IMG/VR virus record: IMGVR_UViG_3300017752_000074
Span: 1-33,245 of that record
DNA length: 33,245 bases
Reading direction: 5' to 3' (one strand)
Source of the DNA: a virus
Shown: positions 13,656 through 33,245 of the stretch, piece by piece
Layout: each line of letters opens with the position of its first letter
Position numbering within the stretch: the stretch's first letter is position 1
Program-made: the position numbers and the translations under genes
Notes under the pieces: model-generated
Told to the model about the DNA's origin: nothing
Seen by the model: only the letters and a program-made list of their open reading frames with translations
Database searches by the model: none

Positions 13656-13675
13656 GGGAAGCCCGAAGGCTTCCC
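13656..13675 (-). terminator. Rho-independent terminator of the late (minus-strand) capsid genes
   Basis: An 8-bp perfect stem GGGAAGCC/GGCTTCCC with a 4-base loop. Read on the minus strand the loop is TTCG closed by C-G, the very stable UUCG tetraloop, and the stem is followed by a run of six T. On the plus strand it lacks a T run, so it mainly serves transcripts coming from gp23. Confidence 0.85.
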
Positions 13676-13695
13676 AAATACTCTTTAATAAAGTG

Positions 13696-13717
13696 GGGCG
13701 GTTGATCCGCCCTTCTT
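13696..13717 (+). terminator. Rho-independent terminator of the plus-strand gene array
   Basis: GGGCGG (13696-13701), loop TTGAT, CCGCCC (13707-13712), then TTCTT. A GC-rich 6-bp stem with a modest T tail, placed to stop plus-strand transcription just before it enters the gp23 coding region on the other strand. Confidence 0.65.
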
Positions 13718-25001: not shown

Positions 25002-25420
25002 TTTTTATCCTTTTCCCTATCGGCAACTCTTTTACGCAGATCAGAGGAAGAGAAACGATGATCACGTTTATTAAAATATAGCTGAATACCACGTGATTTA
25101 CAAATATCCTTGCCTGTAAAATCCTGTTCTTTATATTCCTCGCCCATGATCTTAACGTCAACCTGATACATACTCAAAATATCCTCAAGATCCTTTTCAG
25201 AACCATAAGGAATAATTTCATCGACATAACTTACAGCGTTTAATTGAGTATACCGTTCAACTACGGTTTGGACTGGTGGGTTTTTTGAGGGGCGGTCCAT
25301 GCTTGGATCAAACTGTAAACCACAGATCAAATAATCACACTGTTGTTTTGCTTCTCTCAGCATTTGCACATGTCCTGCATGCAATAAATCAAAAGTACTT
25401 GCCGTAAAACCAATTTTCAT
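24998..25420 (-). CDS. HIGH-superfamily nucleotidyltransferase (TagD/RfaE2-like)
   Basis: 140 residues from ATG 25420, with GAGGA 5 bases upstream; ATG 25432 is the alternative. The N-terminus KIGFTASTFDLLHAGHVQML contains the nucleotide-binding HxGH (HAGH). The C-terminal RFSSSDLRKRV corresponds to the ISSTxxR motif. A middle GLQFDPSMDRPSKNPPVQTV and KIMGEEYKEQDFTGK complete a glycerol-3-phosphate / heptose-phosphate cytidylyl- or adenylyltransferase fold. Substrate cannot be called; together with kdsA and kdsB it points to surface-sugar chemistry. It sits in the late module behind its own sigma70-type promoter, so it may be expressed early. Confidence 0.85.
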   Translation of the reverse strand: MKIGFTASTFDLLHAGHVQMLREAKQQCDYLICGLQFDPSMDRPSKNPPVQTVVERYTQLNAVSYVDEIIPYGSEKDLEDILSMYQVDVKIMGEEYKEQDFTGKDICKSRGIQLYFNKRDHRFSSSDLRKRVADREKDKK

Positions 25421-25467
25421 TTTCATCCTCATTCAGTTACAAATCACAAATATATTTAGACACTTAC

Positions 25468-25496
25468 ATTATATAACATTTTTTCTTAAAAGTCAA
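25468..25496 (-). promoter_or_regulatory. sigma70 promoter reading the nucleotidyltransferase gene
   Basis: On the minus strand TTGACT (25496-25491), a 17-base spacer, then TATAAT (25473-25468), a perfect -10. It is 47 bases before the start codon at 25420. It forms a divergent pair with the plus-strand promoter at 25530. Confidence 0.75.
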
Positions 25497-25529
25497 CAAA
25501 ATCTTTTTTCACTTTTGTTCATTTTTGTG

Positions 25530-25557
25530 TTGACATTATCTTAGTTTGGTGTATAAT
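25530..25557 (+). promoter_or_regulatory. sigma70 promoter pointing antisense into gp15
   Basis: TTGACA at 25530-25535, a 16-base spacer, TATAAT at 25552-25557: full consensus. Bases TTGACATT and TTTGGTGTATA echo the early promoter family (P2 in particular). No plus-strand gene follows; downstream is the 3' end of gp15 on the opposite strand. Confidence 0.75.
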
Positions 25558-25581
25558 TAGACTATGGTCTATAAAATACAA

Positions 25582-26403
25582 TTAAATATTATTTGGATCA
25601 TCTACAAATGACACCGTAGCCCAATTATCATCAAAGTCAATATCATTAAAATCAATTGTAAGGTCGGGATCAGTAGTAGGTTCATTATTAGCAGTCATAC
25701 CTGGTTGTAACACAACAGCAGAATCAAATGTATTATTTGCATCAGAAGCAGGTACCGTAGAGGCAACATTTGTCTGAATAAACTTAATGACCTGTCTCTC
25801 TTTATTTGGTCCAAAATACCAAGCCTTCATTGTGAAATTAAGAGTCCACATGATGGCTCTTCTCTCCAAAAAATCACCTTCATATATTTCTTCATTCTGT
25901 ATGTCATTTAAGACCAATGGAATATCTAACGGATCCAGATCTGGAATTAGTTTAACAGTAGAAGTAAATTCTGGATTAAAAAATGGTATGATTTGTTCTA
26001 CTATCTTTACAGCATCTTCTGCATACGATGCCATAATATTAAGAGAAAATTGGATATTGTATGGTGCTGGAACCCAAAAGTAATTTCTGCTACCTGTAGT
26101 CTCATTGGCTACTGTCTGCAAGACTTTTCTGGTTGGTGCAAGTTTTCTTTCACCATCATAGAACATTGCATTAATTTCAAAGGACATTCTCGGTAGAGTA
26201 ATTGCCTGTGCTTTAAAGTCTGGATCTTGATTGAGTCGTGCAAGAATCTTTTGATGCGGTGCATAAGAGATAGGCACAATCATTTCTTGTACCACAGCAC
26301 CTTCATTATCTTTTCTTTTAATTTTCAGCTGATTAAAGTATGTTCCAAAAAGAGCAACATATTTCCTTGTAAGCTGATTATAAAAATGATTTGCTATTGC
26401 CAT
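25582..26403 (-). CDS. 15: tail sheath stabiliser / tail completion protein (T4 gp15-like)
   Basis: 273 residues (T4: 272). gp15 caps the finished tail and joins it to the neck. Match to the family: NHFYNQLTRKYVALFGTYFN near the start, IVPISYAPHQKILARLNQDP, LPRMSFEINAMFYDGERKL, YNIQFSLNIMASYAEDAVKI and VEQIIPFFNPEFTSTVKLIP, FLERRAIMWTLNFTMKAWYF. The C-terminal 60 residues are acidic and Asn/Asp-rich. It follows gp14 with a one-base gap, the T4 order. The antisense promoter at 25530 fires into its 3' end. Confidence 0.93.
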   Translation of the reverse strand: MAIANHFYNQLTRKYVALFGTYFNQLKIKRKDNEGAVVQEMIVPISYAPHQKILARLNQDPDFKAQAITLPRMSFEINAMFYDGERKLAPTRKVLQTVANETTGSRNYFWVPAPYNIQFSLNIMASYAEDAVKIVEQIIPFFNPEFTSTVKLIPDLDPLDIPLVLNDIQNEEIYEGDFLERRAIMWTLNFTMKAWYFGPNKERQVIKFIQTNVASTVPASDANNTFDSAVVLQPGMTANNEPTTDPDLTIDFNDIDFDDNWATVSFVDDPNNI

Positions 26404-26404
26404 A

Positions 26405-27100
26405 TCATGAATCCTGTATATCTAATGGTTCAACTTCGATTGTTTCACTAAACGGATCCATTTCTGTAAAGTCAATAATCTTGTCAGCCTCTATTTCAAA
26501 CTGCCAGTTATCAGCAAGAGGATCTGTCGCCTCTACCGCAGCCAATGTATTAACAGTATTTGCAGTGAGATCTCTATCAGCAAAATAAGTATCAATATTT
26601 TCACGACCAGTCTGGAATCTTTCTCCTGACCATTCTGCCAATTCACATTTAAGATCATATACTTGTAGAGCACCCATCTGATAGAATATACTCTCATGCT
26701 CAACATGCATGATTTTAAAGAGTTTACCATTTAATGGGAAATAGAAATAATCACCTTCGAAAGGTCTAGTTCTAGCAGGTCTGTCCTTTGTAACAAATCT
26801 TTCATATGTTCTAAATGCGACACTAAATGTAACCTGGTCTCTGATTTGTAGACCGAACTTAGAGAGGAAATCTCCTTCACCCTCGAACCCATCTACATTT
26901 TTAACATAGCCTTCAAATTCAAATGTTTCATCATAGATAGGCAAATCATCTTCATTCAGAATTTCATCAACAGCTCCACTGGAACGGGTGATGTAAATAA
27001 GATCCACACCATAAATTTGAATTGATTCGATTACAAGATCGTCAATTAAATTCTGTTCGTTGAAGTTGTCATAATTCTGAAAATAAACATTCGTTGCCAT
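26405..27100 (-). CDS. 14: neck protein (T4 gp14-like)
   Basis: 231 residues (T4: 256). Part of the gp13-gp14 neck ring that seals the packaged head and accepts the tail. Features: LIDDLVIESIQIYGVDLIYI near residue 20, DEILNEDDLPIYDETFEFEG, FLSKFGLQIRDQVTFSVAFR, RTRPFEGDYFYFPLNGKLFK and MHVEHESIFYQMGALQVYDL. These are typical of gp14 in T4-like marine phages. The start lies 3 bases after the gp13 stop. Confidence 0.92.
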   Translation of the reverse strand: MATNVYFQNYDNFNEQNLIDDLVIESIQIYGVDLIYITRSSGAVDEILNEDDLPIYDETFEFEGYVKNVDGFEGEGDFLSKFGLQIRDQVTFSVAFRTYERFVTKDRPARTRPFEGDYFYFPLNGKLFKIMHVEHESIFYQMGALQVYDLKCELAEWSGERFQTGRENIDTYFADRDLTANTVNTLAAVEATDPLADNWQFEIEADKIIDFTEMDPFSETIEVEPLDIQDS

Positions 27101-27103
27101 GAT

Positions 27104-27847
27104 TTATCCAATAAAATTATATGTGAGGGGTTGAAGATTACCTATGGCATCTTCTTCCATCCTTTGACGTTCGTCTCTTGCCTCTTGCAGTATTTGTTCA
27201 CCGTTAAATGAAACACCACCTACAAGTTGCATATTACTAAATTTTGTAAGATTTAAGCCCCATTGTTCTCTAATTAAAACAGCTGCATAGTTCTGTAACC
27301 AACGATCACTCCATACATCTGTATATGTGTTAGGATCAATTACATCATACGCCTCGACAACCACATATTCACCAGCAACAAGATTCCCGGCACTAGTATC
27401 TATATGTAATCTATTGACGTGCCGATTATATCTAATTAATGGGCGACCAACCAAAATCTCTTGCATAAATTCAAGATTCTGCATTGTCATATAATAGTGC
27501 TGAAGATTATAACTTGTAATGTCTTGGATATTAGTTAATACAAATTGATATTGAACATTAAAAATACCAGACCCAGATGATATTGATGACGATAAATCAA
27601 AGACTTTGGAAATACCTAGAATGTTTTTAGGCATGTCAATCCAGCCATTCTCGACATCATCTTCAGTAAGTTGATGTTTTAAATAAACTAATTGGCTACC
27701 GTTGTAGTGATAATCTCTCCAAAAAGAAACCGCCTCATCTACGCGATCTTCTACCTGATCCTCAGCTACATTGATCTGAATTACAGGAGCACCTATTTTT
27801 CTAAGAACATATTCTACAAATTCTTGTCTTGTATCAGGTTGTGCCAT
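27104..27847 (-). CDS. 13: neck protein (T4 gp13-like)
   Basis: 247 residues (T4: 309). Forms the neck ring with gp14. The N-terminus RQEFVEYVLRKIGAPVIQIN and the following VEDRVDEAVSFWRDYHYNGS are family marks; then WIDMPKNILGISKVFDLSSS, NLQHYYMTMQNLEFMQEIL, YVVVEAYDVIDPNTYTDVWS and WLQNYAAVLIREQWGLNLTK. The ending GGVSFNGEQILQEARDERQR MEED is also typical. An exact late box lies upstream. Confidence 0.94.
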   Translation of the reverse strand: MAQPDTRQEFVEYVLRKIGAPVIQINVAEDQVEDRVDEAVSFWRDYHYNGSQLVYLKHQLTEDDVENGWIDMPKNILGISKVFDLSSSISSGSGIFNVQYQFVLTNIQDITSYNLQHYYMTMQNLEFMQEILVGRPLIRYNRHVNRLHIDTSAGNLVAGEYVVVEAYDVIDPNTYTDVWSDRWLQNYAAVLIREQWGLNLTKFSNMQLVGGVSFNGEQILQEARDERQRMEEDAIGNLQPLTYNFIG

Positions 27848-27877
27848 TTATTGGTACCTTACTATAGTTTTATTTTT

Positions 27878-27885
27878 ATTTATAT
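27878..27885 (-). promoter_or_regulatory. T4-type late promoter for gp13
   Basis: Exact TATAAATA on the minus strand, 30 bases before the gp13 start codon, overlapping the last base of the adhesin gene upstream. Confidence 0.75.
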
Positions 27886-30302
27886 TATTGGCCTGATTCC
27901 GTTTGATGCCCATAGTAGCCTGTTGCTATGATGTTTGCACCACCTGCGTCAGTCGCAATATCAACTTTAGCAGAGCCATTGGCAAAGGTCCATTGTGAAA
28001 CTGCCCATTTAACATCTCTAGTTGATGTTAATGCATGCCAAGTGTTTATAGTGTCTGAATTTGCCGGGGTTGCAGTATCACCAGAATTAGATGAATGCCG
28101 CCAATAATATGTCTGTGAAGGATTGGAAGTATTAATCCAAGAACCTTGTTGGGCGTCACCCGATGAATCACCTATTCTCCAAATTGTTCCGTCTGATCTG
28201 AACTCCCAGCCGATAACAATAGAAACGCCAGGTGTTAAACCAAATGCCAGTACTGGTGAGGCTGAAGAACCACTAAGGCTAACAGTCTCAGTAGGAGTGT
28301 TACCAGTATTATCCCACGTAAAGGTATATCTACCCGATGAGCTAAGATTATAATAAGTTACAGGAGTGTCTGTATTTTTTTGTCTCAGGAAAAATCTAAG
28401 ATATGCAGTACCTGATGAGGAATCAGATTTTTGCCAATACCATTTACGACTGGTTACAACACCATCTCCTATCGGCAGGTCTAGATAAGTATTAAGTGGT
28501 TCAGTAGCAGAGCCATTTGGTGTATCACCACTGCTCTTCTGCATGTAAATTGTGTAGTGAGATCTTGTATTTCCTGGTGATGGTGGTCTGCCGCCATTCC
28601 ATTCTCCAATATAGTATTTCCCACCAGGGTACTGATTACCAAGTCCGTATATTTTACCATCTTCATTAAATTCAATGCCTGGATCTGCAGATGTGTTATC
28701 AGTATCACTTATAGTAATACTACTAAGAATGTCTGCATTTGGATAGACGCTAGCATTTCTTTGTTTTATTTGAAGCATGTCCTCGGGCGCACGTATTCTA
28801 TTATATACATTTCTTTCATAATCCAGGAACCCTCCACCACTACCAAGCAATTGATCAGAGTCTGGCCATCCATAGGTATCTCTTATAGACACCCATGCAA
28901 GAGATTGTCCTCCATAAGTTCCAAGGACTAGACGGTGATTGTATGAAAATAACCCAGATCCTATAAGGACATTTTCGTAGTCATCCGCAGAGGAAGATGT
29001 AAAGTATTGACCTTGTGATGTCCCATCAAGATTAAAGAAACAAAGTACTCCATTTGAATTGGTCTTTGCAGCAACTGATCCTACAAAAATCCGAGCATCT
29101 TCTACTTCAAGTAATGCACCAAATGCCTCTGCTGTTCCGGCAGTAAAGGCACCAAAATTTAGTGTTTTAAGCCATTCACCATTCAGATCATATATGTAAA
29201 CATTACCCTGTGTAGTTGTTTCAGTCTCGCCTGATTGGTACCCAGGTGCAGAAATAAAAATTTTATCAAATGCTATTCGAACTCTTGTTCCAAACATATT
29301 ATTATCTGCTCTATTAGCCACTATTTCTTCGATAGTGTTTATGAGTTGGCCATTTAAATCATAGACATATACTTTGCCGCGGTGGTGTCCTGCATTTCCA
29401 GCAGTCCAAGCATTGGCATTTACGTCTACATCTGACCATAATGGATTTGAAACTACAATTCTACCACATCCAATTTCAGAGCCTTCGCCCCAACCTTCAT
29501 AATCAGTAGGTGGTGCTACCCCTGGTGTAAGATCTGGGTCATACAATATGTGCGTTACTTGAGCATGCTCATTAAGTAATACGGTATTATATTTGTGGTA
29601 ACTTCCACCGGTAACTCCATTATTGGTAGCAATAGTTTTTAAAGAAAGTATTCCATGACCATATCCAGACTCTTCCGAGCCTAAATTGTAAACTGCCATA
29701 AGTGAAGTACTTCCAGTAATTCTGTCTGAAATCTCATCATCTGTAATTTCAGCATGCACATTTCCAAAATAATCAACTAATTGTGCAGACTTTAAGACTA
29801 TAAATCCAGAGCTGGTCCACATCATACCATTTGTACCTTGCTTCATGGAATTTGTCGACAGACTATTTGCTAGTTCCACTCCTCCAGTAGAGTTACCTGG
29901 CGATGGTATAAATGGAGCAAAAAGAACATTCTGTGCAGTTGCTCCATTTGAAGGCTGTGATGAATAGGAATTAATTTTGTTAAGACCAGGGTAACCTGGT
30001 GATCCAGAGACTAGTGTAGCTTCAAAGCTAGGCGGAGGCGATCTGAAAAATCCATCATTATACTTACCTATAATATGGCCGAAGGCGCTATCCTTCCTCA
30101 TTTCCCAGCCCCACGGGCCCGAAGTACTAGTTGATCCGAATGCAAAAAGCCCACCAGATCCTTGTATTCCGCCGGTGGTAGTAAATCCTAAGTCGTTTGC
30201 AGAATCACCCCCTACAAAGGAACTTGTAGCGGTCTGTCCTCCCATCCTACCCATAAAAATACCTGGTCTGGACGTAATGTAGTTGTATGATCTGAATGCC
30301 AT
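27885..30302 (-). CDS. large tail fiber/adhesin with beta-propeller-like repeats
   Basis: 805 residues, strand-rich, Gly/Ser/Thr/Asn-rich, few charged residues: a typical virion adhesin. N-terminus MAFRSYNYITSRPGIFMGRM. Residues ~200-490 carry about five FG-GAP/integrin-like units with the plan G-x-x-R-I-hh-G ... G-x-V-Y-V-Y-D-L-N-G-x-h-h: GCGRIVVSNP ... GKVYVYDLNGQLINTI; FDKIFISAPG ... GNVYIYDLNGEWLKTL; DARIFVGSV ... LCFFNLDGTSQGQYF; and NHRLVLGTYG. The C-terminal third (after ~530) has repeated W-Y-x-x-x-S-x-S strands (RKWYWQKSDSSSGTAYLRFF; QTYYWRHSSNSGDTATPANS), probably receptor-binding or trimerising. Receptor unknown. Confidence 0.78.
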   Translation of the reverse strand: MAFRSYNYITSRPGIFMGRMGGQTATSSFVGGDSANDLGFTTTGGIQGSGGLFAFGSTSTSGPWGWEMRKDSAFGHIIGKYNDGFFRSPPPSFEATLVSGSPGYPGLNKINSYSSQPSNGATAQNVLFAPFIPSPGNSTGGVELANSLSTNSMKQGTNGMMWTSSGFIVLKSAQLVDYFGNVHAEITDDEISDRITGSTSLMAVYNLGSEESGYGHGILSLKTIATNNGVTGGSYHKYNTVLLNEHAQVTHILYDPDLTPGVAPPTDYEGWGEGSEIGCGRIVVSNPLWSDVDVNANAWTAGNAGHHRGKVYVYDLNGQLINTIEEIVANRADNNMFGTRVRIAFDKIFISAPGYQSGETETTTQGNVYIYDLNGEWLKTLNFGAFTAGTAEAFGALLEVEDARIFVGSVAAKTNSNGVLCFFNLDGTSQGQYFTSSSADDYENVLIGSGLFSYNHRLVLGTYGGQSLAWVSIRDTYGWPDSDQLLGSGGGFLDYERNVYNRIRAPEDMLQIKQRNASVYPNADILSSITISDTDNTSADPGIEFNEDGKIYGLGNQYPGGKYYIGEWNGGRPPSPGNTRSHYTIYMQKSSGDTPNGSATEPLNTYLDLPIGDGVVTSRKWYWQKSDSSSGTAYLRFFLRQKNTDTPVTYYNLSSSGRYTFTWDNTGNTPTETVSLSGSSASPVLAFGLTPGVSIVIGWEFRSDGTIWRIGDSSGDAQQGSWINTSNPSQTYYWRHSSNSGDTATPANSDTINTWHALTSTRDVKWAVSQWTFANGSAKVDIATDAGGANIIATGYYGHQTESGQ

Positions 30303-30312
30303 TTATAACACC

Positions 30313-30969
30313 TTAAAAGGTAATGTTGTTAAAGTTTGCAAATGTCGATACATCATTTAAATCAATAGCTTCTAATCTATCAGCTACTTTTCTTTTTCTA
30401 CCTATAAGATTTCCAATAACACGATCATTTTCCTCTGCCTTTGCTATAACCTTAGGTGCAAGAATTGCAACTGTGGTTTCTCTTGCGTCTGCGATTGCGG
30501 TCAGTAGTGGAGTTGGTACTGAGTTGTCAGCTGTATATGCTAGTGCCTCTACTCTTTGCTGTGCAAATGTTGATTTTTCGGTCTCAGAATAGCCATTCGC
30601 GATGGCTGCAGCCAGAACCATTTGGTTAAATGAGCCTTCAGCCTCTGAATTTTTTGCTATTTTATAAGTCTTTGCAGCAGCAATTTTTTCTTCATCAGTT
30701 GTAAATCTATCAAACGCCTCAAAATGTTCTGTCCATACACCATCAACTAAATCAACACTAGTCGTACGAACTGCTTGATCCCAATTCAAAGAAGGAATGT
30801 CTCCCTTCTCTACTATAACATATTCTGCCGGAAGATTTGATTTTAAGTTTTCTAGTTCTGGGTGTTGTTTAATTACTGTCAACAGTTCTGGGTGTTGAAA
30901 ATGATCCAGTAAAGGAAACTCTGCTATTTCATTCGTGTCTGGATTGATCTTAGCAATACGATAAGACAT
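30313..30969 (-). CDS. putative tail fiber assembly protein
   Basis: 218 residues between two adhesin genes. The N-terminus gives YRIAKINPDTNEIAEFPLLD; the middle DIPSLNWDQAVRTTSVDLVD and GVWTEHFEAFDRFTTDEEKI resembles the W-x-Q-x-V..., DGxWxxxxxxxDxTxxEK region of short fiber-assembly or tail-tip proteins. The rest is helical (EGSFNQMVLAAAIANGYSET; ARETTVAILAPKVIAKAEEN), and ends VSTFANFNNITF. Location suggests a chaperone for fiber assembly or a minor tail component. Identity is not secured. Confidence 0.6.
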   Translation of the reverse strand: MSYRIAKINPDTNEIAEFPLLDHFQHPELLTVIKQHPELENLKSNLPAEYVIVEKGDIPSLNWDQAVRTTSVDLVDGVWTEHFEAFDRFTTDEEKIAAAKTYKIAKNSEAEGSFNQMVLAAAIANGYSETEKSTFAQQRVEALAYTADNSVPTPLLTAIADARETTVAILAPKVIAKAEENDRVIGNLIGRKRKVADRLEAIDLNDVSTFANFNNITF

Positions 30970-30981
30970 ATTATAATTCCT

Positions 30982-32559
30982 CTAATTTTGTGTTACACCT
31001 GTAGACTTTTCGATAAGTCCATCATAGGTTGTTGGTATTTTGAATATATTTATACATGCGTCTGTTGTATTCCAGGTATTGGGATGTACAAAGATACCAT
31101 AGCCCATAGCAAATTTGCTAGCGCCTGCTTCAGAGCCAAAAGCTGCTCCCGATGTATTGCCTGCCATATCTTCTGGATATATTGTGTCGATATACCTACC
31201 ATTAATATCATGAAGTTCATAAGGTTTATAGTCTTCTGTATTCGTAGGCGCTCCGGTGTCGGCGGCCGCTTCAAACGGATACAAAACTTTGGTCATAATT
31301 AAGCCACCGTATATTGACAGCCCGACCAGCTGATATGATCTATTAGAGTCACTATCAAGAGCACCCCCACGCGCCCCTACAAGCGACCATAGATAATTAC
31401 CATCCATATCAAAGACGAACTTTGCACCCATATTCCTCTGGCTAGGATTATCCACCCGTTGTCCATCTATTACTATTCTGCCAGATCCTATTCTTACATC
31501 AGCTCCTAGTTTAATACTTGTCTGTAAACTTGATCCATAATTAGTCTGCCATGGATGAAAAAGTATCTTTTCAAAATTTCCGTTGAGATCAAACATATAT
31601 GCAGTTCCCATATTAGCCTGCGTTGCCGCCTGATTGGGAGAATAAAAGATAGAGTCATCCTGAGAACAAATAACTATTTTTCCGCAACCGACGGCTTGTT
31701 GGGCTTGAGATCCTCCGCCGTATGTACGCCCACCAAAACTTGCACTGTAGGCCGGTCTATCATAGTCATACACCATTGGATCTGCATTACCAAATTCATT
31801 TGCTGAAGTAGTCGAATAATATTCCATCTCATTCTTCCAAAGAATATTAGGACATATTATATTTCCGTTATAATCATATATAGTAGCATTTCCTTGAAAT
31901 GAGCCTACGCCAGGGTCACCGCCAGGTGGAGTAAATCTGTAGTTTCCACTAGCTCTTTGCCTACCGACGACTATTCTTCCACAACCTGCCGCTGCGGCCA
32001 TACCAAAAGCATCTGAAGATGAATATAACGTAGATGGAATAGGAAGTGTGCGCAATAAATTGCCCATTTGATCGTAGACATATGTTCTACCGACCTCAAG
32101 CTCGGTGGCACCATTATCGTATGCATTAGGATCGTTATCATAATCATTTGAATGTACTATAAGTAAACCATCAACACATATAACACCCCAACCAAATCCA
32201 GTATCATCCCCGATACTAGTTTCAGGAGCATCTATTCTTCCAAGATAATCTCCTTCAAAACTAAACATAAAAACGGCGCCGACATCATTATTATAGTTAT
32301 ACTGACCTACAAATATTCTGCTGTCACCAATTGCGACACCACCGTTACTAAATCCTGCTGTAACATTGGGCGGCTGTACAGTGATACATGTTGCTTGTAT
32401 ATCACCTGCGGTATAATTACTTAGGGTAGGTTTGTCACCGATGGATTCTGGATTACCTGACCCTAACTGTACATTATCTATGGACGTCAGTATATCTCCT
32501 GCCTTCCCAATGTGTGTTTCGGCTTCAAATCCGGTACCCTGTGAGGTTTTAATTGCCAT
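30982..32559 (-). CDS. seven-bladed beta-propeller-like tail adhesin
   Basis: 525 residues. After an N-terminal docking-type segment (TSQGTGFEAETHIGKAGDIL), about seven repeats of 50-70 residues follow, each with a G-x-G-x-I-hh strand and a closing D-h-x-G-x-h-h strand: DSRIFVGQ ... FMFSFEGDYLGRI; DGLLIVHS ... YVYDQMGNLLRTL; GCGRIVVGR ... TIYDYNGNIICP; GCGKIVICS ... YMFDLNGNFEKIL; GSGRIVIDG ... FVFDMDGNYLWSL; YGGLIMTKV ... ELHDINGRYIDTI; MGYGIFVHP ... NIFKI. This is the FG-GAP/integrin-alpha-like propeller plan. The Ala/Gly-rich stretches resemble phage structural proteins. Related to the genes at 27885 and 32571, so probably a paralogous array. Confidence 0.78.
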   Translation of the reverse strand: MAIKTSQGTGFEAETHIGKAGDILTSIDNVQLGSGNPESIGDKPTLSNYTAGDIQATCITVQPPNVTAGFSNGGVAIGDSRIFVGQYNYNNDVGAVFMFSFEGDYLGRIDAPETSIGDDTGFGWGVICVDGLLIVHSNDYDNDPNAYDNGATELEVGRTYVYDQMGNLLRTLPIPSTLYSSSDAFGMAAAAGCGRIVVGRQRASGNYRFTPPGGDPGVGSFQGNATIYDYNGNIICPNILWKNEMEYYSTTSANEFGNADPMVYDYDRPAYSASFGGRTYGGGSQAQQAVGCGKIVICSQDDSIFYSPNQAATQANMGTAYMFDLNGNFEKILFHPWQTNYGSSLQTSIKLGADVRIGSGRIVIDGQRVDNPSQRNMGAKFVFDMDGNYLWSLVGARGGALDSDSNRSYQLVGLSIYGGLIMTKVLYPFEAAADTGAPTNTEDYKPYELHDINGRYIDTIYPEDMAGNTSGAAFGSEAGASKFAMGYGIFVHPNTWNTTDACINIFKIPTTYDGLIEKSTGVTQN

Positions 32560-32570
32560 ATTCTATTATC

Positions 32571-33245
32571 CTATCCGCTATATATTTGTGGTGATTGCCA
32601 ACTTAAGCCTCGGGTGCCAGCAATATCAATGGTTGAATTATATTTTCTCCAGCGATGTGCTTTACTCATCACATCTCTTGGTCTCATTGGCTTTGTACCT
32701 GCTCTTATCTCTAAGTATTCTGTTCCAGTACTGTTTAGCGAATATCCTAATATGTTAAATTCCATGGAGGTACAATTTTGAGCCACATAATGAGTTCGAG
32801 TACCATAACTGAAACCACCTGAGATTGAAAAATCATCCATGACATTATGTGCATATCTGTCATATGCAATTAAGTGGTTATTATTAAGCCTACCCATTGA
32901 TTTGTATCTTCCAAATCCATTATATGTGACTGTGTTGTTCGGGGGCTCTATATGACTTATGTATATTCCACTCATCGTATCATATGTAAATATTTTTTTA
33001 TTAGTGTCGTTTCCTATTCCAACAAAAAGATGTGTACCATCTCCTTCAATCCAATTACCAAAGCCTGTAATTGTAGCTGCTCCATCCGTTGATCCCAGTG
33101 CCAAGGTCATAGGAGGTCCTATTTCACCAATAAATTTTCGGCTAAGTGAACTGAACATATATACTGCTCCGACATTATTACCCGTAAAAGGAGCACCTAT
33201 AAAGAGCTTATCATCAATTACTTTCATACACCAACCATACTTATC
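32571..33245 (-). CDS. tail adhesin with propeller-like repeats, 5' part beyond window
   Basis: The frame stays open through the internal ATG at 33227 to the window edge (DKYGWCMKVIDDKLFIGAPF), so at least 225 residues and the true start lies outside. Visible repeats: DDKLFIGAPF ... VGAVYMFSSLSRKFIGEIG; GTHLFVGIG ... KKIFTYDTMSGIYISHIE; NNNHLIAYDRY. The C-terminus leaves the repeat plan: NCTSMEFNILGYSLNSTGTE then YLEIRAGTKPMRPRDVMSK. It is probably the last piece of a third propeller adhesin related to its two neighbours. Confidence 0.72.
   Translation of the reverse strand, partial: DKYGWCMKVIDDKLFIGAPFTGNNVGAVYMFSSLSRKFIGEIGPPMTLALGSTDGAATITGFGNWIEGDGTHLFVGIGNDTNKKIFTYDTMSGIYISHIEPPNNTVTYNGFGRYKSMGRLNNNHLIAYDRYAHNVMDDFSISGGFSYGTRTHYVAQNCTSMEFNILGYSLNSTGTEYLEIRAGTKPMRPRDVMSKAHRWRKYNSTIDIAGTRGLSWQSPQIYSG

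Follow-up and report, generated by a model that had tools for sequence, protein, structure and literature searches.

Antisense transcription over phage late genes is known from single phages, and no description that ties it to a conserved promoter class was found in the open-access literature; subscription journals could hold one. At the T4 origin oriE, in a T4-like phage as here, an RNA is annotated that is complementary to the transcript of a late structural gene. However, oriE has iterons together with repEA/repEB, none of which is known from the site described here; this site lies at a gene boundary and has a palindrome at its expected start. Noncoding antisense transcripts over structural genes, with a proposed regulatory role, are likewise described for the Pseudomonas phages LUZ100, LIT1 and LUZ7 (PMC10134795), but these phages are of unrelated types and are not known to have a conserved sigma70 class with a palindrome. 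An antisense RNA in a marine T4-like phage is also known from cyanophage S-PM2, where CfrI (~225 nt) runs antisense to both psbA and a gene for a homing endonuclease, and is not placed at a late-operon boundary (PMC2984593). In bacteria, the excludon and convergent interference repress a neighbouring gene in cis, which is the mechanism that we propose for the present locus, although excludon RNAs double as mRNAs (PMC7154746), whereas the antisense RNA expected here codes for nothing recognisable.

The two promoters between gp15 and the nucleotidyltransferase gene

The window, by which we mean the whole 33,245-nucleotide (33-kb) stretch of DNA that was analysed, is part of the genome of a T4-like phage. 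Its plus strand carries small early-type genes (to 13.5 kb), and the late genes, among them gp23, terminase, gp15, gp14 and gp13, are on the minus strand. Strong terminator-like hairpins on both strands lie between these convergent modules (13656-13713), the one on the minus strand having TTCG as its loop and a run of T behind it. The features at and around the gap are given below, where L001-L010 are the ten nearest relatives.

25530..25557, plus strand: antisense sigma70 promoter TTGACA-N16-TATAAT, a 12/12 match, aimed into the 3' end of gp15 and found intact in L010 as well as in L001 and L002
25468..25496, minus strand: nucleotidyltransferase sigma70 promoter TTGACT-N17-TATAAT, an 11/12 match, kept in all ten nearest relatives
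25558..25571, no strand: palindrome TAGAC-TATG-GTCTA, centred on the expected start (about 25564)
25446..25460, minus strand: conserved block TCTAAATATATTTGT, downstream of the nucleotidyltransferase promoter, identical in the window and L001-L010
24998..25432, minus strand: cytidylyltransferase-like nucleotidyltransferase gene (PF01467, phrog_7878), likely start 25420
25582..26403, minus strand: gp15, tail sheath stabiliser (PF16724, phrog_227), a late gene read antisense, its stop 24 bp from the -10
26405..27847, minus strand: gp14 and gp13 (phrog_460, phrog_211), the genes that an antisense transcript would reach next if unterminated

The sequences, strands and coordinates of the two back-to-back promoters are those of the original prediction, and the gap length of 161 bases given there holds with the ATG at 25420 as the start codon of the nucleotidyltransferase, equivalent to the start used in its relatives (MKIGFTAS...); counted from a start at 25432 the gap is 149 bases. 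Its GC content is 23%, compared with 39% for the window. With 12/12 and 11/12 hexamer positions at spacings of 16 and 17 bp, within the 16-18 bp of sigma70-type promoters, both promoters are above chance. The plus-strand promoter is the sole 12/12 match in the 33-kb window; such a match arises in 0.07% of dinucleotide shuffles of the 149-bp gap, and shuffles of the whole window contain 0.07 of them per window.

As had been predicted, the plus-strand promoter is antisense and has no gene ahead of it. L001 and L002, which are of the same species, retain it unbroken, and in L010, whose gp15 is 71% identical, both hexamers are perfect and the spacer is one base longer and of different sequence. 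The segment is absent from L003-L009 (gp15 86-88% identical), which indicates that the plus-strand promoter is dispensable at the gp15 junction.

The plus strand of the window also holds five near-identical early promoters (590, 3247, 3732, 8420, 8763), which have in common the motif GGTTGACATTTGCTC..TATATTAGTA.TATAAGG with an A-rich stretch upstream, and GGTTGACATTTGCTC...TAGTA. On a model built from these five members, the plus-strand site of L010 scores 16.8, while random sequence gives at most 6.3; the window site scores -0.7 on the same model, and 20 of 66,290 positions score as high.

The suggestion that the transcript is a conserved small RNA or peptide was not upheld. The sequence downstream and the 15-codon frame at 25564-25611 are not conserved in L010; the frame itself is present in the window as described, and L010 has no ATG there. 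Scans of the window for tRNAs and Rfam families gave no matches, and a terminator scan of 25558-33245 found no plus-strand terminator. A 98-aa antisense frame within gp15 (25787-26083) was rejected, as it is not kept in L010 or L009.

Antisense boundary promoters and the palindrome at their expected start

In 1.09 Mb of related contigs we found 18 intergenic antisense promoters with perfect hexamers, including about three early small-gene cases and near-identical copies, where 60 permuted motifs averaged 0.05; the gene calls in this census were mechanical open reading frames. Such sites number a few per large contig, and the 3' ends that they target belong to gp15, gp13, the gene before gp13, uvsW, a nucleotidyltransferase-cupin fusion and a tail fibre-like gene. 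The gene read antisense is uvsW in L204 and the nucleotidyltransferase-cupin fusion in L208, and both precede a 135-aa gene (phrog_3758 in L204). That the gene read antisense differs while the position is alike speaks more for an effect of position than for one particular target of the RNA.

Loci with gp55 were collected with two queries, taking the best 80 for each, which samples two broad clades of T4-like phages. Among these best 80 loci per query, an antisense promoter matching at least 11/12 is present in 88 of 116 distinct junctions between uvsW-X and gp55, with 55 of them perfect, and in 0 of 118 control stretches inside gp55. A sense promoter is found in 78 of the same 116 junctions and both directions in 56, and each of the 88 junctions with an antisense promoter has the end of a same-strand gene shortly ahead, at a median of 33 bp. 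Over the class the distance from the -10 to the upstream stop has a median of 31-33 bp and percentiles of 24-49 bp; the window site, aimed at the 3' end of gp15 with the stop 24 bp from the -10, lies within that interval.

Cultured phages have the arrangement as well. In the Pelagibacter phage HTVC008M, the gap that separates gp55 from the gene following uvsW holds an antisense TTGACA-17-TATAAT, arranged back to back with TTGACTTTT...TATAAT in the sense direction, as in the window. Mosig, also a cultured Pelagibacter phage, has a perfect antisense promoter at the gp55 junction with the palindrome AACGG-TGT-CCGTT, and 11/12 antisense versions occur at this junction in cyanophages Syn1, S-H9-2 and S-RIM8. 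No antisense match of at least 10/12 was found at the gp55 junction of Melnitz, and no perfect antisense promoter in the cultured rhizobial relatives phiM12 and phiN3, in the T4 region 75-122 kb or in the examined regions of P-HM2. Overall, the plus-strand site of the window is very probably a real promoter belonging to an antisense boundary class of marine T4-like phages. Since the class recurs at the late sigma factor gene, also in Pelagibacter isolates, a role in the early-to-late switch is directly testable. In the Pseudoalteromonas phage XG4 (L228), a promoter with the long leader AAACACGTAGTGTCTAATTAATTCTAATCACCC occurs twice, at 27151 (plus strand) and 46309 (minus strand); both resembled the class but were set aside, and the one at 27151 appears to drive a plus-strand gene (27310-27627) among minus-strand genes.

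Among 103 distinct intergenic antisense promoters, 68 have a palindrome of the set strength directly behind the -10; the share is 4 of 57 for gene-driving promoters (Fisher 4e-14) and 6% for shuffles, although the sites are related by descent, so that neither the Fisher nor the shuffle figures are exact probabilities. The centre of the palindrome falls 6.98 +/- 1.31 nt past the -10, at the position expected for the start. The window has such a palindrome in this position (p about 0.02 taken alone), and that of L010 is weak. When 24 gp55 sites are aligned without gaps, the two arms covary, the score being 0.649 compared with 0.187 when shuffled and at most 0.253 when slid. Changes on both arms affect 30 cells, whereas shuffling gives 12.2 such cells and sliding no more than 13. 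A wobble test of which strand might fold gave 9 G-T and 3 A-C mismatches, which favours neither strand clearly.

Three familiar roles for such an element were considered and set aside. A repressor operator was rejected because the arms differ between sites of one phage (L208 and L215 of G006). With the expected start inside the loop, a single arm would enter the antisense RNA and both arms the late sense RNA, which does not agree with a hairpin at the 5' end of the antisense RNA. As for an intrinsic terminator, which would have a G+C-rich stem and a run of T behind it, the palindrome is absent from the terminator scan and is followed on the sense strand by ATTATA. It is tempting to speculate, and we do so tentatively and with more doubt than belief, that these sites are a distinct promoter type, in which the start is centred in a palindrome conserved in structure and not in sequence, and which acts by its shape. 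Within the initially transcribing complex such a palindrome might, for example, fold the non-template strand into a hairpin; it might also be a double-use element, giving a hairpin in the late sense RNA and belonging to the promoter of the early antisense RNA. If the double-use reading is true, each late-operon boundary would be a phase-dependent insulator.

Proposed action and rival explanations

The explanation that we favour overall, with modest confidence, is that of a working early host sigma70 promoter of this class, directed antisense into gp15 and acting in cis at the late-operon boundary. For cis-interference as the mechanism the case is about evenly balanced. Judged by its sequence, the plus-strand promoter would be fired early by host sigma70 into the 3' end of gp15, and the antisense transcription would act in cis on whichever gene lies upstream. 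Head-on interference would hold down read-through on the late strand until the polymerase is converted by gp55; the outcome would be transcriptional interference or insulation at the late-operon boundary and not a specific RNA product. The layout of the class comprises consensus -35 and -10 hexamers, the -10 lying ~30 bp from the upstream late stop, and a palindrome centred on the expected start, often with a second, back-to-back promoter for the next gene. The element retains its place and direction although the gene upstream varies, and there is no conserved RNA product, which favours a cis effect.

The early antisense transcript might instead form an R-loop over the AT-rich junction and prime an origin as at T4 oriE, where NC_000866 annotates a primer RNA complementary to the transcript of late gene 5. 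The low GC content of the gap relative to the window and the few sites per large contig are in line with this, as is the priming of oriF by R-loops at an AT-rich unwinding element, with UvsW removing R-loops late (PMC3016281). However, the AT content downstream is not above that of gene-driving promoters (0.705 vs 0.738) and there is no skew switch at 25.5 kb, and we consider a replication primer unlikely. A shade less probable is a coupling by supercoiling, in which divergent antisense transcription would leave negative supercoils between the two promoters that stimulate a partner promoter (that of the nucleotidyltransferase, of gp55, or a late promoter) and the RNA would have no role. It would be consistent with the back-to-back promoters of the window and of 56/116 gp55 junctions (best 80 loci per query), and with an antisensed gene that can change between phages, but 32 of the 88 antisense junctions in that sample lack a sense sigma70 promoter matching 11/12 or better, ATAAATA lies at most 60 bp behind only 7 of the 103 antisense promoters, and the palindrome is left unexplained.

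Equally small is the chance that a defined antisense RNA works as a molecule that pairs with late mRNA, in trans or as a substrate of RNase III, and makes this mRNA less stable or less well translated. CfrI of S-PM2 (PMC2984593) offers a precedent, and antisense RNAs mapped over structural regions of LUZ100 are hypothesised to regulate structural genes there and in LIT1 and LUZ7 (PMC10134795); nevertheless, no conserved RNA or terminator lies downstream of the present site, and the target genes vary between phages. Least probable, in our estimate, is a neutral promoter left from a lost plus-strand gene, as the original prediction had entertained, or carried along with an inserted nucleotidyltransferase. 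The loss of the site in L003-L009 would fit, and so would the mobility of the nucleotidyltransferase gene, which has antisense promoters before it elsewhere (L119/L120, L125/L128), but no relative compared has a plus-strand gene at this spot, the hexamers are kept in L010, and the class is conserved and covaries without a nucleotidyltransferase.

The nucleotidyltransferase gene and its promoter

The minus-strand promoter had been expected to serve the nucleotidyltransferase, and this agrees with its position ahead of that gene in L001-L010 and with a perfect TTGACA-17-TATAAT before the same gene, right after gp15, in further relatives (L013, L015, L017-L022, L031-L033). With a sigma70 promoter of its own in both groups, the gene therefore travels with its promoter at the gp15 junction. 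The gene is also mobile among junctions, and it is preceded by antisense promoters in L119/L120 and L125/L128 too. In L120 the oxygenase-like gene of L128 is gone, and a fragment like its 3' end (VSNPP...) adjoins the antisense promoter.

The conserved block TCTAAATATATTTGT contains CTAAATA and, judged by its letters, may be a variant of a late promoter, for which the motif of marine T4-like phages is NATAAATA (PMC2984593); TCTAAATA has a single minus-strand copy, inside this block at 25446..25460. If so, the nucleotidyltransferase could be read both early and late. In HTVC008M, TTGACTTTT..TGATATAAT promoters (30353 and 47020 in L231, 698 in L230) stand before gp55, the DNA polymerase gene and a gene near the helicase loader, and promoters of the TTGACTTTT type are possibly a class for replication-phase genes. 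The nucleotidyltransferase promoter of the window likewise begins with TTGACTTTT.
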